A stretch of DNA of 64,000 bases from Ruegeria faecimaris (GTDB lineage: Bacteria > Pseudomonadota > Alphaproteobacteria > Rhodobacterales > Rhodobacteraceae): contig NZ_FXTE01000001.1 in the NCBI RefSeq assembly GCF_900182615.1, forward strand, positions 372,001 to 436,000, written 5' to 3'. Of this stretch, positions 29,392 through 52,835 are shown one piece after another (the first letter of the stretch is position 1; each line of letters begins with the position of its first letter). The position numbers were made by a program, and so were the translations under genes. The notes beneath the pieces were generated by a model, which was not told the origin of the DNA, did no database searches, and saw only the letters and a list, made by a program, of their open reading frames with translations.

Positions 29392-29631
29392 ATGGCTTCG
29401 GACAGACAGAATCTGCAGGACGCGTTCCTGAATAATGTACGGAAAGCAAAAGTCCCGGTCACAATTTTCCTGATCAACGGTGTGAAATTGCAGGGTGTGA
29501 TCACCTGGTTCGACAACTTCTGCGTATTGTTGCGCCGCGACGGACAGTCGCAGCTGGTCTACAAACACGCGATTTCGACCATCATGCCATCGCAGCCGAT
29601 CAGCCTGTATGAGGGCGAAGACGCCTCTTGA
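29392..29631 (+). CDS. hfq: RNA chaperone Hfq
   Basis: A 79-residue Sm-like hexamer subunit that pairs small RNAs with mRNAs. The Sm1 region [27 protein letters not shown] and the Sm2 YKHAIST motif are intact. The C-terminal tail is very short, as in alphaproteobacteria. The ribosome site is weak. The stop shares one base with the hflX ATG (TGATG), giving the conserved hfq-hflX pair. Confidence 0.96.
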
Positions 29632-46735: not shown

Positions 46736-47227
46736 TACGAATGGTGTTTGCAGGTAGGGCTATGGCAAAATGTCGCACCTTGAGCGTGCGAAGTTTAAAT
46801 CAGTTAGGCCCGCCACAGGAAATCTGAGACGGGCCTACGGACCAAATAGTTTTGAGTGAGTGGAGGCTGGTCCGAAAATACTGTTCCTGATGTTGTAACA
46901 CAGCTATGTGTCGGTAATGTTTGGCGTAATTCAAATTGGATACATTTGTACTAGTCGCAGGCTATATCTTTCGAACCCGTTACGTAAAGCCCCTTGTTGA
47001 AATTTTTCAAATTTGTCTGAAACTAGGGATCGCATCAATTTATAGCGGAATGCCCACAGCCTTTACCTGCATGTCGTGGTACTGCGGGTCTGTGCCAGAA
47101 TCCGCCGAAGGGTATGAGACCCACACAGCAAACGCCGAACGGGTCTTATTGCATCACATCTGCAGCGGTTGCGATCCTCTGGAACGAGATTGGCACGGAC
47201 AGTTAGCATTTAGGAAAGGACGGGGCC

Positions 47228-47241
47228 GCCTCTTTTGAGGC
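47228..47241 (-). terminator. Short hairpin at the 3' end of the peptide-binding protein gene
   Basis: GCCTC/GAGGC around TTTT, immediately after the stop at 47243. No strong T tract follows on the minus strand. Confidence 0.3.
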
Positions 47242-47242
47242 G

Positions 47243-49069
47243 CTATTCCTCGTACCACCAGACCTGCGGCATGTATTCCGGCCCGTCACCGTATATGGGC
47301 AGGGTTTCCGGCTGTTTCAGCTCACGCGCATGTGCAATCCGGCCGACGTCAAAGCTCCAGATCGGGATGACATACCGGCCAGCGGTTAGAACGCGATCCA
47401 GCGCGCGGGTCGCAGACACGAAATCTTCGTGGCTTTCAGAGGCCAGCATCGTATCGATTAAACCGTCCACTGCTAGTGACTGAACCCCCATCAGGTTACG
47501 TGTTCCTGCCGTGTCGGCATTTTCACTGCCCCAATACAGGCGTTGTTCGTTGCCCGGCGACAGGGAAAGAGCCCGGCGAAATGGGGTCATGTCAAAATCA
47601 TGGGCATCCATCCGAGAGGTGTATTGTGCGTCGTCGATTTTTTCGACTGTAAGCTCGATGCCAAGCCGTTCGAGCGTACGCGCATAGATTTCGGCGATGG
47701 TTCCGACATTCTGGACAACGTTGAGGCTGCCCTGGCTGATGACCATGTCAACGATGAACGCTTCGCCATCTGCGTTTCGCAGTACGCCATCCTGAACCGT
47801 CCAGCCAGCCTCTTGCAGAAGCTTGGTTGCCTTGCGCAAATTGGCCCTGTTGCGTTCCGAACCGTCACCTACCGGCAGCTCGTAGCCTTCCAGCGTACCG
47901 GGCAACAGTGTATCGGCGTATGGCTGCAGCAGTTCAGCCACCTGACCGGTGGCAGTACCGGGCTGCATCGCCAAATCCGAGCCCGAGAAATACGAGGTTA
48001 TCCGCGGTTGCGCGCTTCCGGTGACGGTGTCGTTGATGAATTCGAAATTGAAAGCCAGAGTCAGAGCCTCGCGCACGCGCCAATCATCGAAGGGTGGCTT
48101 GCGCGTATTCATGACAAATCCGGTCATGCCCGAAGGCTTGCGATGCGGGATTTCGGTTTTCAGCACATCGCCGCGCTGTACCGCGGGGAAGTCATACTGG
48201 TTGTTCCACTTATCGGCGTTAAACTCGCGCACGGCTGAGAGCTCGCCTGCTTTGAAGGCCTCGAATGCGACTGTGCCATCCCCGTAGAACTCGATCCGCA
48301 TCTCATCCAGATTCATGGTGCCGCGCCGAAACGGAATGTCAGCGCCCCAGTAATTCGGATTTCGACGCAGGTTCACATACCGTCCGGCTTCGTACCCGTC
48401 GATGACATATGGTCCAGACCCCAAGGGGATGTCTTGCAGCGGCGCGTCGGCAAAGTCTTTACCCTCCCACTGTGCCTTCTGAAGGATCGGGCGCATCCCG
48501 GCGATCAACGCAAGCTCGCGGTCGGGGTCGTTAAACGTGATGCGGACGGAACGCGGTCCGGTTTGTTCGATACTGTCGATCTTTCCCCAAAGGCCGCGAT
48601 ATCTCAGATGCCCTTCGGTTCCCAAAGTCTCATATGACCATATGACATCCTCGACAGTGACTGGTGACCCATCCGAGAATCGGGCATTCTCTCGCAGGGT
48701 AAATTCGACCCAGGATCGGTCTGGAGCCGTCTCAACTGATTCGGCTAACAACCCGTAAAGAGTGAAAGGTTCGTCCCAGGAACGCCCCATCAGGCTTTCA
48801 TGGGTCCAAAATCGCAACTGCCAGGGTGACGTGCCTTTTTGCACAAACGGGTTAAGGCTGTTATAGCCGCCGGTATTTCCAAATACGACTTTGCCGCCTT
48901 TGGGTGCATCAGCGTTGACATAGGGTAGCGACACAAAATCCGGTGGTAGGGCAGGGTCGCCATACATAGCTATGCCATGGGTCGATTCTGCATGGGCTGC
49001 TGCAACGGCAAAAACACTAACGATTCCCGCGATCATAGGGCGAACGGGGCGAAGGAAATCGGGGCTCAT
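47243..49069 (-). CDS. Periplasmic oligopeptide-binding protein (YejA type)
   Basis: A 608-residue extracellular solute-binding protein of family 5. A signal peptide (MIAGIVSVFAVAAAHA) precedes HGIAMYGDPALPPDF, the YejA-like start. Family features are LAESVETAPDRSWVEFTLRENARFSDGSPVTVEDVIWSYE and GSGPYVIDGYEAGRYV. It would deliver peptides or microcin-like compounds to a YejBEF permease, but no permease or ATPase gene is adjacent, so it is an orphan. In-frame starts at residues 1 and 12 are both possible. Divergent from the candidate small RNA at 49184. Confidence 0.88.
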   Translation of the reverse strand: MSPDFLRPVRPMIAGIVSVFAVAAAHAESTHGIAMYGDPALPPDFVSLPYVNADAPKGGKVVFGNTGGYNSLNPFVQKGTSPWQLRFWTHESLMGRSWDEPFTLYGLLAESVETAPDRSWVEFTLRENARFSDGSPVTVEDVIWSYETLGTEGHLRYRGLWGKIDSIEQTGPRSVRITFNDPDRELALIAGMRPILQKAQWEGKDFADAPLQDIPLGSGPYVIDGYEAGRYVNLRRNPNYWGADIPFRRGTMNLDEMRIEFYGDGTVAFEAFKAGELSAVREFNADKWNNQYDFPAVQRGDVLKTEIPHRKPSGMTGFVMNTRKPPFDDWRVREALTLAFNFEFINDTVTGSAQPRITSYFSGSDLAMQPGTATGQVAELLQPYADTLLPGTLEGYELPVGDGSERNRANLRKATKLLQEAGWTVQDGVLRNADGEAFIVDMVISQGSLNVVQNVGTIAEIYARTLERLGIELTVEKIDDAQYTSRMDAHDFDMTPFRRALSLSPGNEQRLYWGSENADTAGTRNLMGVQSLAVDGLIDTMLASESHEDFVSATRALDRVLTAGRYVIPIWSFDVGRIAHARELKQPETLPIYGDGPEYMPQVWWYEE

Positions 49070-49148
49070 TTTGGAAACAATCCTGCTCTGGCCTTATTTT
49101 GTTGGGATTCACCGTAGCCATGATTTTTCATATTATCAAACTTTTAGC

Positions 49149-49177
49149 TTGGACGAAGGCGTAGAATTGCTTATAAA
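49149..49177 (+). promoter_or_regulatory. Sigma70-type promoter of candidate small RNA
   Basis: TTGGAC (49149-49154), a 17-base spacer, then TATAAA (49172-49177): near-consensus with optimal spacing. The start of transcription is expected near A49184. It faces the terminator at 49231 and lies upstream of bdhA. Confidence 0.65.
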
Positions 49178-49183
49178 GGGCGT

Positions 49184-49259
49184 ACTGCTCGATAGGTTTC
49201 TTGCCTGTATGAAACCTGCCTCAATAACTTAACGCCCGCTTCGTGCGGGCGTTTTTTTT
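49184..49259 (+). ncRNA. Candidate small RNA (~75 nt) with Rho-independent terminator
   Basis: Between the divergent peptide-binding protein and bdhA genes is a complete small transcription unit. Near-consensus promoter at 49149-49177; stem-loop one, AGGTTTC (49194-49200) with GAAACCT (49211-49217) and 10-base loop; 13-base single-stranded linker; then terminator AACGCCCGC (49231-49239)/GCGGGCGTT (49245-49253) followed by T8. No plus-strand gene lies upstream for this terminator to serve. Alternatives are a bdhA attenuator leader (bdhA starts 102 bases later), or a leader peptide: ATG AAA CCT GCC TCA ATA ACT TAA at 49209-49232. hfq is encoded in this window. Confidence 0.65.
49231..49259 (+). 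terminator. Strong orphan Rho-independent terminator
   Basis: Stem AACGCCCGC/GCGGGCGTT (9 bp), loop TTCGT, T tract of 8 (49252-49259). No coding gene precedes it on this strand, so it belongs to the candidate small RNA or to a bdhA leader. Confidence 0.9.
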
Positions 49260-49360
49260 GTGCGATTTTCGCTGATACAGCGCCCCCAATCTTTCCCCGT
49301 TTTCTTTGCAGGTGCAGCATGGCACTGTGCCGTCAACACGGAATCTGACGGAGAGCACCC

Positions 49361-50134
49361 ATGAGTCTTTCGGGCAAAACAGCAATCATCACAGGATCGA
49401 ATTCGGGCATCGGGCTGGGCATCGCCCGCGAGCTGGCCAAAGCCGGGGCGGATGTGGTGCTGAATTCGTTTACTGACCGCGACGAAGATCATGCTCTGGC
49501 CGCAGAGATCGGGCAGGAAACCGGAACCAACGCGCGCTATATCAAAGCGGACATGTCCAAGGGTGACGAGTGTAGGGCGCTGATCGAAAAGGCTGGAGCC
49601 TGCGATATCCTGGTCAACAATGCCGGCATTCAGCATGTGGCGCCGATTGATCAGTTTCCAACCGACAAATGGGACGCGATCATTGCGATCAACATGAACT
49701 CGGCCTTTCACACCACTGCCGCCGCGTTGCCGATGATGCGCAAGGCGGGCTGGGGACGGGTGGTGAATATTGCATCGGCCCATGGGTTGACGGCATCGCC
49801 TTTCAAAGCCGCCTATATCGCGGCCAAGCACGGTGTTGTCGGGATGACCAAAACCGTAGCCCTCGAGACCGCACAGGAGCCGATTACCTGTAATGCGATT
49901 TGCCCGGGATATGTGCTGACGCCGCTGGTCGAAGAGCAGATACCCAATACGATGAAAGAATACGATATGAGCCGTGAGGATGTCGTGAAGAATGTCCTGC
50001 TAAAGCGGCAACCTTCGAAAGAATTCGCTACGGTCGAACAACTGGGCGGTACGACGATCTTTCTGTGCTCGGATGCGGCGGCGCAGATCACCGGCACGAC
50101 GATTTCAGTTGATGGCGGGTGGACCGCGCTCTGA
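49361..50134 (+). CDS. bdhA: D-beta-hydroxybutyrate dehydrogenase (SDR)
   Basis: A 257-residue SDR that interconverts 3-hydroxybutyrate and acetoacetate with NAD, in polyhydroxybutyrate use. It has the TGSNSGIGLG nucleotide site, NNAGIQHVAPI, and catalytic Ser139, Tyr152 and Lys156. The BdhA-specific ASAHGLTASPFKAAYIAAKHG segment, which supplies substrate-binding His and Lys, supports the specific assignment. The start has a ggagag ribosome site. It is followed 12 bases later by a patatin gene, a conserved pairing in polyhydroxybutyrate-making alphaproteobacteria. Upstream lies the candidate small RNA. Confidence 0.92.
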   Translation: MSLSGKTAIITGSNSGIGLGIARELAKAGADVVLNSFTDRDEDHALAAEIGQETGTNARYIKADMSKGDECRALIEKAGACDILVNNAGIQHVAPIDQFPTDKWDAIIAINMNSAFHTTAAALPMMRKAGWGRVVNIASAHGLTASPFKAAYIAAKHGVVGMTKTVALETAQEPITCNAICPGYVLTPLVEEQIPNTMKEYDMSREDVVKNVLLKRQPSKEFATVEQLGGTTIFLCSDAAAQITGTTISVDGGWTAL

Positions 50135-50146
50135 GCCTTGGGGAGT

Positions 50147-51178
50147 ATGGCAGTGATACGTATCAATCTGGCTTTGCAGGGCGGCGGTGCGCACGGAGCG
50201 TTCACTTGGGGTGTGCTGGATCGTCTGCTGGACGAAGATGATATCGAAGTCGCGGCGATCACCGGAACATCGGCAGGTGCACTGAACGGGGCGGCCTTTA
50301 AGTCTGGCATGGTGAGGGCAGGCCGTGAGGGCGCGCGTGCCAATCTGGATGCGCTCTGGGCTCGTATGGGGGCCGTCGACGATACGAACCTGACCAACTG
50401 GATGCGTGCGTTTGAGCCCTCACATATCGCACAGTCCATCGAAAATTCGCTGCCGTTTGCTGTAGGCGACGCCTGGTCGCGATTGGTTTCGCCTTATGCC
50501 TATGGGCCGTTCTACCGTAACCCCTTGGAACCTGTGGTCGAGCGCTTTGATTTCGATGAAATATGCGCTGCCGAAGGTCCGCGTCTGTATGTCTGCGCGA
50601 CTTGCGTGCGCAGCGGAAAGATACGGGTGTTCACAGGGGACGAGCTGTCGACTGAGGCCATCCTTGCTTCCGCCTGTTTGCCAACCCTGTTTCAGGCGGT
50701 CGAGATATTCGATCCAAAATCGGGCCGGACCGAGGCTTACTGGGATGGCGGATATACCGGTAATCCAGCTCTGTATCCCTTGTTCAATTCCGATCTGCCC
50801 GAGGACGTGGTGATCGTGAACATCAACCCTCTGGAACGGGAAGAAATCCCAAAGACGCCGCAGCAGATCCAGAACCGGATCAATGAGATTGGCTTTAACT
50901 CATCGCTGTTTCGGGAACTGAGGGCCATAAGCTTCGTTCAGCGCTTGCTGGAAGATGGCAAGCTGAAAGCGGGCGAAATGAGCCGTGTTTTGGTTCACAT
51001 GATTGCCGATGACGCGTTGATGAATGACCTCTCGGTCGCGACCAAGACAGTGCCCAACCCTGTGGTCCTGCATAAACTCAAAGAAGCTGGCCGCAATGCA
51101 GCTGATCAGTTTTTGACAGATCACAAGGCCGATTTGGGTGCACGCAGCACGGTCAATCTGCCGGAAATGTTTGGATAG
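50147..51178 (+). CDS. Patatin-like phospholipase
   Basis: A ~343-residue patatin-family lipid hydrolase. The oxyanion loop is GGGAHGAF, the nucleophile elbow is GTSAG and the catalytic Asp is in WDGGYTGNP. It probably acts on a lipid, or on a polyhydroxybutyrate-related substrate given its coupling with bdhA; that is inference. The start is ambiguous: ATG 50147 is only one base from the ggggag ribosome site, while GTG 50153 has better spacing of seven. Its stop abuts the convergent DUF502 stop with no gap. Confidence 0.88.
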   Translation: MAVIRINLALQGGGAHGAFTWGVLDRLLDEDDIEVAAITGTSAGALNGAAFKSGMVRAGREGARANLDALWARMGAVDDTNLTNWMRAFEPSHIAQSIENSLPFAVGDAWSRLVSPYAYGPFYRNPLEPVVERFDFDEICAAEGPRLYVCATCVRSGKIRVFTGDELSTEAILASACLPTLFQAVEIFDPKSGRTEAYWDGGYTGNPALYPLFNSDLPEDVVIVNINPLEREEIPKTPQQIQNRINEIGFNSSLFRELRAISFVQRLLEDGKLKAGEMSRVLVHMIADDALMNDLSVATKTVPNPVVLHKLKEAGRNAADQFLTDHKADLGARSTVNLPEMFG

Positions 51179-51856
51179 TCACTCTGGTGGCTGGGTCGGG
51201 TCTTTGTCGTTCGGGTAAACAAGACCGGCCGAAATCACCAGCTTGGCGGCATCTTCGATCGACATGTCCAAAAGGATGACGTCCTCGATCGGAAAGAACA
51301 GCAAGAACCCCGATGTCGGGTTGGGTGTCGTCGGAATGAACACGCTGTACAGATCGCCACCCGCTTCTGCACGTTCGTTGACTTCTCCCTTGGCGGTGGT
51401 CGAGACGAACCCGATGGCCCAGATGCCACGGCGCGGATATTGAACCAGACAGGCTTTTTCAAATGACCGTTCAGTCTGGGCAAAGACGGTCTCGGAAATC
51501 TGCTTGATGCCTGAATAGATGGACCGGATGACCGGCATCCTGTTCACCAGGCTTTCGGTGAACGAGATAAAGGATCGGCCTAGGATGCCCTTGGCAACCC
51601 AGCCCACCACGACGGTGAACACCAGAAAAAAGATGACACCTACACCGCGCAGGTTGATGCCAACATATTGTTCAGGCTGGAATTGGTGGGGAACCAGCGG
51701 CAGAACCGCACTGTCGATCCAGCCGACAACAGACCAGATCAGCCAGATCGTCAACCACACCGGAGCAATAACGACGATGCCCGTCAGAAAGGACGCGCGC
51801 AGCCTTGAGAACAGGCCGGGCTGTCGGTTGGGTTCTTCGTCAAAAGGAGTGTTCAT
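51179..51856 (-). CDS. DUF502 family membrane protein
   Basis: A 225-residue membrane protein of the DUF502 family. It has two hydrophobic helices in the first half (FLTGIVVIAPVWLTIWLI and VIFFLVFTVVVGWVAKGILGR), the conserved NRMPVIRSIYSGIKQISETVF motif, and a soluble C-terminal domain with GFVSTTAKGE and VFIPTTPNPTSGFLLFFP. No function is established. It is convergent to the patatin gene with no spacer. Confidence 0.88.
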   Translation of the reverse strand: MNTPFDEEPNRQPGLFSRLRASFLTGIVVIAPVWLTIWLIWSVVGWIDSAVLPLVPHQFQPEQYVGINLRGVGVIFFLVFTVVVGWVAKGILGRSFISFTESLVNRMPVIRSIYSGIKQISETVFAQTERSFEKACLVQYPRRGIWAIGFVSTTAKGEVNERAEAGGDLYSVFIPTTPNPTSGFLLFFPIEDVILLDMSIEDAAKLVISAGLVYPNDKDPTQPPE

Positions 51857-51920
51857 TGCGGTCCTGAGTGGCTTGCGAATTTAGTTAAGCAGTCCTTGGC
51901 CTTGGTACAATAGCTATATG

Positions 51921-52835
51921 TCAATCCGCCTTGGCGGACAGGGCGCGGGCGATCCCGGCTGCCAGACGGGCATTGTTGCGGACCAATGCGATATTGGCGG
52001 TCAGAGAACGACCTTCGGTCTGCTCATAAATCCGTTGCAACAGGTAGGGAGTAACCCCTTTACCGCTGATCCGATGCGCATCTGCATCCGCCTGGGCCGA
52101 GGCGATGATCGGGGCCAGTTCCTCGGATGGGATCTGATCGGCCTCCGGGATCGGATTGGCGACAAGTTGGCCGCCGGGCAGGCCAAGCGCGCGTCTGGTC
52201 GCATGTGCGTGCGCGACGTCTTCCGCACTGTCCATGCGCAGAGGGGCTGCCAGCGGGGATTTTGCCGACCAGAAGGCCGGAAATTCGTCCTGGCCATAGG
52301 CAATGACCGGAACGCCCAGTGTTTCCAGAACCTCAAGCGTCTTGGCCAGATCGAGGATGGCTTTGGCGCCTGCGGCAACAACCGTGACCGGGGTATGGGC
52401 CAATTCGTGCAGGTCAGCAGAGATATCGAACGAGGTCTCAGCCCCTTGGTGGACGCCTCCAATACCGCCGGTGGCGAAAACGTCGATCCCGGCGTGATGG
52501 GCGGCGATCATGGTTGCGGCGACCGTTGTTGCACCGGTCCCACCGGTTGCCATGCAGGCGGCCATATCGGCACGGGACAGTTTGGCGACCCCATGCACTT
52601 GGCCCAGCGCTTTCAACTCTTCGGCTTCCAGACCGACGTGAAGCGTACCATTGATCACCGCCATGGTGGCTGGTACAGCGCCCGCCTCTCGGATGTCTTG
52701 TTCAACCTGTGCCGCAACCTCGATGTTCTGCGGGTAGGGCATACCGTGGGTGATGATCGTGCTTTCCAGCGCAACGATAGGTTGGCCTGCGTCTTTGGCG
52801 GCGCGGACCTCGGCAGAATATTGAATGTTGATCAC
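51921..52835 (-). CDS. psuG: Pseudouridine-5'-phosphate glycosidase
   Basis: PsuG cleaves the C-C glycosidic bond of pseudouridine 5'-phosphate to uracil and ribose 5-phosphate. The 304-residue protein has the family motifs ALESTIITHGMPYPQN, the KLSRAD segment with catalytic Lys, and the ATGGIGGVHQGAE metal/phosphate site. It overlaps psuK by four bases. Together the pair allows use of pseudouridine from RNA turnover. Confidence 0.93.
   Translation of the reverse strand: MINIQYSAEVRAAKDAGQPIVALESTIITHGMPYPQNIEVAAQVEQDIREAGAVPATMAVINGTLHVGLEAEELKALGQVHGVAKLSRADMAACMATGGTGATTVAATMIAAHHAGIDVFATGGIGGVHQGAETSFDISADLHELAHTPVTVVAAGAKAILDLAKTLEVLETLGVPVIAYGQDEFPAFWSAKSPLAAPLRMDSAEDVAHAHATRRALGLPGGQLVANPIPEADQIPSEELAPIIASAQADADAHRISGKGVTPYLLQRIYEQTEGRSLTANIALVRNNARLAAGIARALSAKAD

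Follow-up and report, generated by a model that had tools for sequence, protein, structure and literature searches.

A probable StsR orthologue in Ruegeria faecimaris and its predicted pairing with the mraZ and ftsB leaders

INTRODUCTION

StsR, formerly RSs0827, is a 72-nt small RNA (sRNA) of Rhodobacter (Cereibacter) sphaeroides that is controlled by RpoHI/HII and binds Hfq; its other binding partners are the dcw 5′ UTR and UpsM, which it opens to RNase E (PMC8307010, PMC11354728, PMC8625941). It is a stress and stationary-phase sRNA that acts as a brake on cell division and slows growth (PMC8307010). Its partner UpsM is part of the dcw leader upstream of mraZ, the leader measuring 268 nt, UpsM 206 nt and a fragment 130 nt (PMC5089854). 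RSs0827 is also reported in PMC3413700 and PMC3688512, and the rpoE mRNA is a published StsR target in R. sphaeroides.

CrfA, a sponge RNA of Caulobacter, resembles StsR in being an sRNA that acts on sRNA, in its link to starvation and in involving Hfq, but it sequesters sibling sRNAs, whereas StsR brings about cleavage of its RNA partner, which doubles as an mRNA leader (PMC12559287). Two further stress sRNAs of R. sphaeroides, SorX (RF02784) and SorY (RF02651), come from the same bacterial family as the unit described here.

We analyzed a 64,000-nt stretch of the Ruegeria faecimaris genome (hereafter, the window), in which the original prediction had placed an orphan transcription unit between a peptide-binding protein gene and bdhA, encoding either an Hfq-type sRNA or a polyhydroxybutyrate (PHB)-linked attenuator. 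We conclude that this unit is very probably the stsR gene of a roseobacter, with an RpoH-type start, Hfq binding, UpsM/dcw pairing, an RNase E cut and slowed division. StsR itself is already known and the orthologue here is a further member; ftsB as its target is a new prediction.

Architecture of the transcription unit

The unit comprises the following features, all on the forward (+) strand:

49136–49152 (+): conserved box TCAAACTTTTAGCTTGG, overlapping the −35 element (columns each 70–100% conserved, 74 loci)
49149–49154 (+): −35 element TTGGAC, RpoH-type TTG (TTG in 70 of 74 loci)
49172–49177 (+): −10 element TATAAA, RpoH-type TAT (TAT in 74 of 74 loci)
49184–49255 (+): probable StsR RNA, about 72 nt, ending in the T-run (conserved unit, start placed at 49184, published length 72 nt)
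49184–49223 (+): invariant 40-nt core
49185–49191 (+): 5′ tail CUGCUCG, possible second UpsM contact
49194–49217 (+): hairpin 1, 49194–49200 with 49211–49217, loop 49201–49210 (from the fold; paired in all aligned rows)
49203–49218 (+): predicted pairing site GCCUGUAUGAAACCUG for UpsM and the dcw leader
49216–49222 (+): linker CUGCCUC, predicted by complementarity to pair with the ftsB start region
49231–49259 (+): intrinsic terminator, 9 bp with T8 (fold, terminator scan and compensatory changes)

Every element originally described is present: TTGGAC-N17-TATAAA, a 7-bp stem-loop, a 9-bp terminator with T8 and, between the two, a single-stranded linker. A 49184 lies seven bases past TATAAA, and an RNA of 72 nt beginning at this predicted start would stop at the fourth or fifth T of the T-run, in agreement with the published StsR length. 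Folding of 49184–49262 gave −26.7 kcal/mol, against −14.7 ± 2.4 kcal/mol for shuffled sequences (z −4.9; 0 of 200 as good). The terminator stem (49231–49253) has nine pairs, seven of them G-C, followed by the T-run, and it ranked first among 15 terminator-like sites in 47000–52000, a region for which shuffles give 5.5.

The StsR promoter was not among the calls of a sigma-70 promoter scan, and TTGGAC agrees with TTGACA at only three of six positions. Motif comparison suggests that it fits better the TTG/TAT pattern reported for RpoHI/RpoHII (PMC10673084). Across loci the two elements are conserved, and the spacer between them varies. Of two RpoH-like genes in this genome, one scores above the family cut-off and the other below it; hfq lies in the window at 29392–29631 (+), about 20 kb upstream of stsR.

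The 17-bp box at 49136–49152 is an imperfect palindrome whose conservation goes far beyond the needs of a −35 element. Allowing up to four mismatches, seven further matches lie scattered in 464 kb of this genome. The box is possibly a putative regulator site.

Conservation across the genus, family and class

The unit and its promoter were present in all 37 genomes of the genus, the source genome included, and the unit in 289 of the 295 genomes of a family-wide draw (E ≤ 0.001), a retention beyond what chance would give. The proposal of a free-standing sRNA gene is supported. The 24 genomes of other families included in the genus search gave no match better than E 0.0057. A 36-nt pattern with up to three mismatches was found in none of the six family genomes lacking a match, yet absence from these is not established because four of them are only 71–85% complete. 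In a class-wide draw of 385 genomes, matches were confined to five family genomes (the source genome included) and one 28-nt match covering the terminator only. StsR thus appears, by sequence search, close to universal in the family.

For comparison of loci we assembled 79, consisting of the best matches of the 295-genome draw, 20 more listed, three from named relatives, three from the class draw and 24 found by pattern; counts out of 74 omit five second copies of one genome. The first 40 nt were identical in 74 of 74 loci. This invariance may be overstated because loci were picked by core pattern or as best matches: 16 of the 40 core letters are set by the pattern behind the 24, and the 79 contain none of the weaker matches of the family draw. 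The sequence past the terminator diverges among relatives; that of the RNA does not.

Conservation of the stems with compensatory changes had been proposed as a check in relatives, and the alignment comprised 51 of the 79 loci. In the terminator, four of the nine pairs change on both sides while 99.1% of cells pair, and the covariation score is 0.138, a value that 0 of 500 shuffles and none of six slid structures attained. Hairpin 1 showed zero variation in its seven pairs, which therefore carry no covariation information.

The original prediction also knew of no named family for this RNA. That holds for Rfam 15, in which the whole window matched no family at gathering threshold and the unit itself drew scattered sub-threshold scores; the RNA does, however, have a name in print, StsR.

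Assignment to StsR and competing explanations

Identity with StsR is supported by the shared 40-nt core, the 72-nt length, the TTG/TAT promoter and the complement in the mraZ leader. Cereibacter johrii, C. azotoformans (listed as Luteovulum) and C. ovatus carry the same core as the window. So does one family genome, G111, which we take to be R. sphaeroides 2.4.1: its 40-nt core is identical, and 72 nt from the predicted start end on the fourth T. Like the window unit, StsR of R. sphaeroides is an orphan gene of about 72 nt with a complement of the UpsM region in the dcw leader; the window unit differs in belonging to another genus and in the letters of its terminator. A plain-duplex test on rpoE, a weak method, found 146, 92 and 151 of 300 shuffles as good in three relatives.

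Either of two candidates of Paracoccus denitrificans, 'Intergenic 134' or 'Intergenic 60', may be this RNA (PMC5107571). In the passages concerned of a Ruegeria pomeroyi sRNA paper, neither mraZ nor hydroxybutyrate dehydrogenase is named (PMC4809877).

The attenuator half of the original prediction, according to which the terminator would halt transcription before bdhA and be bypassed under a PHB-tied condition, is very unlikely, and only the Hfq-type sRNA half stands, as StsR is a published Hfq binder. In 73 of the 79 loci bdhA does follow on the strand of the RNA, and it lies downstream in C. johrii and C. azotoformans. However, the distance from RNA start to bdhA ranges from 156 to 1391 nt (475–1391 nt in seven of the 79), and in six loci bdhA is missing from the fetched stretch although RNA and terminator are still there, so that a fixed linkage to bdhA was not found. 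The divergence past the terminator likewise argues against a leader, as do a fold with no competing antiterminator and a conserved pairing partner that is mraZ, not bdhA. On the other side, a divergent binding-protein gene lies at 189–229 nt in 77 of 79 loci.

Between the unit and bdhA, the sequence TTTGCAGGTGCAGCATGGCA (49305–49324) resembles a PhaR operator. It was considered as a sign of a separate bdhA promoter and dropped, being kept within 330 nt in only 15 of 74 loci.

Membership in the MmgR/αr8 family (RF00519; SisA–D of Caulobacter), which affects PHB in Sinorhizobium meliloti, is similarly improbable. These Hfq-type alphaproteobacterial sRNAs of about 77 nt share the hairpin-linker-terminator plan, and a full-length alignment of RF00519 with the unit scores 24.6 bits (E 0.0012 in 91 bases). 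That score, and the 20.5 bits obtained in C. johrii, nevertheless fall short of the gathering score of 41 bits; the C-rich stretch UUUcCUCCCU is absent from the unit, the terminator is the best-scoring part, and unrelated Rfam families score alike. Matches to SorX (18.0–22.1 against 46.6 bits) and SorY (13.5 against 111) were also below threshold.

The seven-codon frame that had been pointed out at 49209–49232 exists and encodes MKPASIT, but that it is a peptide gene is the least credible reading, given that its stop at codon 8 is kept in 58 of 79 family loci and lost in 21, that its ATG has no upstream Shine-Dalgarno sequence, and that its kept codons are explained by the ATG falling within the invariant pairing stretch.

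Predicted pairing with the mraZ leader and UpsM

The stretch formed by the loop and 3′ arm of StsR hairpin 1 recurs elsewhere in many genomes of the genus; read from the opposite strand, this second occurrence is a complementary site within the leader of mraZ, with which dcw begins. A 16-nt complement, with at most one mismatch, occurs in 18 of 18 mraZ leaders from 17 genomes, 167–214 nt before mraZ. These comprise six leaders from a family pattern search and 12 found earlier, and leave out one locus of a genus genome with a 17-mer match at one mismatch. Conversely, all 18 tested non-stsR loci with CAGGYTTCATACAGGC (up to one mismatch) were mraZ leaders.

Across the family, CAGGTTTCATACAGGC (up to one mismatch) was found in 116 of 120 genomes, a count that includes stsR itself read from the other strand; a reversed control gave one match in 120. 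Of 30 loci opened from this search, 24 were stsR and six were mraZ leaders. In this genome, StsR and the mraZ leader pair with a net energy of −12.7 kcal/mol, opening costs of both RNAs included, and the cofold places StsR nt 20–34 on the leader site. Conserved complementarity and energy thus both support the predicted pairing of StsR with UpsM and the dcw 5′ UTR here.

To locate the site on UpsM we used G111, where, assuming the published 268-nt leader, it falls at UpsM nt 55–70. From the published lengths of UpsM (206 nt) and its fragment (130 nt), the cut falls near nt 76. In the free fold of UpsM, nt 72–83 pair with nt 4–15, a helix at the cut that matches the 'previously double-stranded region' in which RNase E is reported to act (PMC8307010). 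The G111 cofold pairs StsR nt 19–30 and 32–36 with UpsM nt 54–71, breaks the helix between nt 4–15 and 72–83 and leaves nt 72–75 open. This opening may be an artefact because pseudoknots were banned; when the site was merely kept unpaired, nt 72–84 became no looser (0.12 unpaired both ways).

CGAGCAG, the complement of the 5′ tail CUGCUCG, stands 36–41 nt past the main site in 16 of the 18 leaders; one further leader has it at 46 nt, and one has GTGAGCAG instead. The net energy of this contact is −4.4 kcal/mol, it is absent from the cofolds, and CGAGCAG sits in a leader that is conserved anyway, so that a second UpsM contact through the 5′ tail is suggestive only. In C. johrii, two mraZ-leader copies lie on separate contigs of one assembly, perhaps through assembly duplication (L114 and L117).

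In the mechanism we propose, an RpoH-type sigma factor active in stress or stationary phase would start transcription at about 49184, and the terminator would yield a free RNA of about 72 nt to be bound by Hfq. RNase E would then cut UpsM just downstream of the pairing, dcw mRNA would fall and division would slow. RpoHI/HII control, Hfq binding, RNase E cleavage and the growth effect are published for R. sphaeroides and are carried over here by analogy.

ftsB as a predicted second target

Another match that recurs in the genus, again on the opposite strand, corresponds to the leader of the division gene ftsB (Pfam DivIC, septum formation initiator), which lies outside dcw. From their sequences, we take its flanking genes to be pgk and pdhA. 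The StsR linker CUGCCUC complements GAGGCAG before ftsB. In all 31 ftsB leaders of the genus (30 of the 41 genomes of one search and one from the family search), two StsR-complementary blocks, GAGGC and TTCATACGG, never change, while the 2–5 nt between them take 11 forms. Fixed blocks around a variable middle are as expected of two paired blocks flanking an internal loop.

Duplex energies at these genus loci averaged −33.9 ± 1.9 kcal/mol for ftsB, compared with −14.1 ± 1.5 kcal/mol for pdhA. Among 37,036 windows scanned in this genome the ftsB site ranked 9, with stsR at ranks 1–2 and mraZ at rank 5. It would stand second among 376 sampled leaders, behind one acetyltransferase-like gene; starts in this sample were called by a simple open reading frame and Shine-Dalgarno rule, for which ftsB was too short. 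In this genome StsR and the ftsB leader have a net pairing energy of −8.5 kcal/mol, in a cofold that extends across the GGCGG preceding the start codon.

StsR also pairs well with two more leaders of this genome, at −32.4 kcal/mol (L223, near 11020, +) and −31.4 kcal/mol (L229, near 14690, −). Judging from sequence, the genes are presumably acetyltransferase-like and enoyl-CoA hydratase-like, respectively.

In 28 other genera, represented by the best-scoring 28 of 112 genomes with a match, the long ftsB match is gone, but 24 have GAGGCA ahead of the start and 16 have GAGGCAG. The respective control counts were 1 and 0 of 28 for pdhA, 4 and 2 of 49 for bdhA, 0 of 9 for mraZ, and 11 and 3 of 376 for the sampled leaders of this genome. 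The pairing is much longer in the window genus than in G111, whose ftsB leader (AGAGGCAGAGCATG) has only GAGGCAG before the start. Mean energies in these genera were −18.4 kcal/mol for ftsB, −14.6 for pdhA, −14.4 for bdhA and −17.2 for the mraZ start region (n = 9). Pairing outside the genus is in doubt because its energy resembles that of mraZ starts and GAGG may be a plain Shine-Dalgarno sequence.

According to our new proposal, the linker and neighbouring bases would bind across the ribosome-binding region of ftsB, and StsR would repress the gene. From the predicted pairing, we consider such repression an evenly balanced proposition. StsR and ftsB did not occur together among the literature matches listed, a search whose scope was text other than supplementary tables.

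Biological significance

An anonymous intergenic unit gains a name and a likely job. StsR, an RNA studied in one phototroph, now appears near-universal in a large bacterial family, with a 40-nt core that does not change. Rfam 15 is silent on the window at gathering threshold, and a model built from the StsR alignment could annotate many genomes. StsR-ftsB repression is a sharp prediction, open to a single reporter fusion.

We tentatively suggest, with marginally less assurance than for ftsB repression by itself, that StsR is a near-immutable, family-wide brake on division acting at two points through adjacent seeds: the hairpin loop and arm for UpsM and the dcw leader, and the linker for ftsB, perhaps with the 5′ tail as a further UpsM contact. 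If this were true, the demand for a simultaneous fit to several conserved partners would account for the lack of change in 40 of 40 nt.
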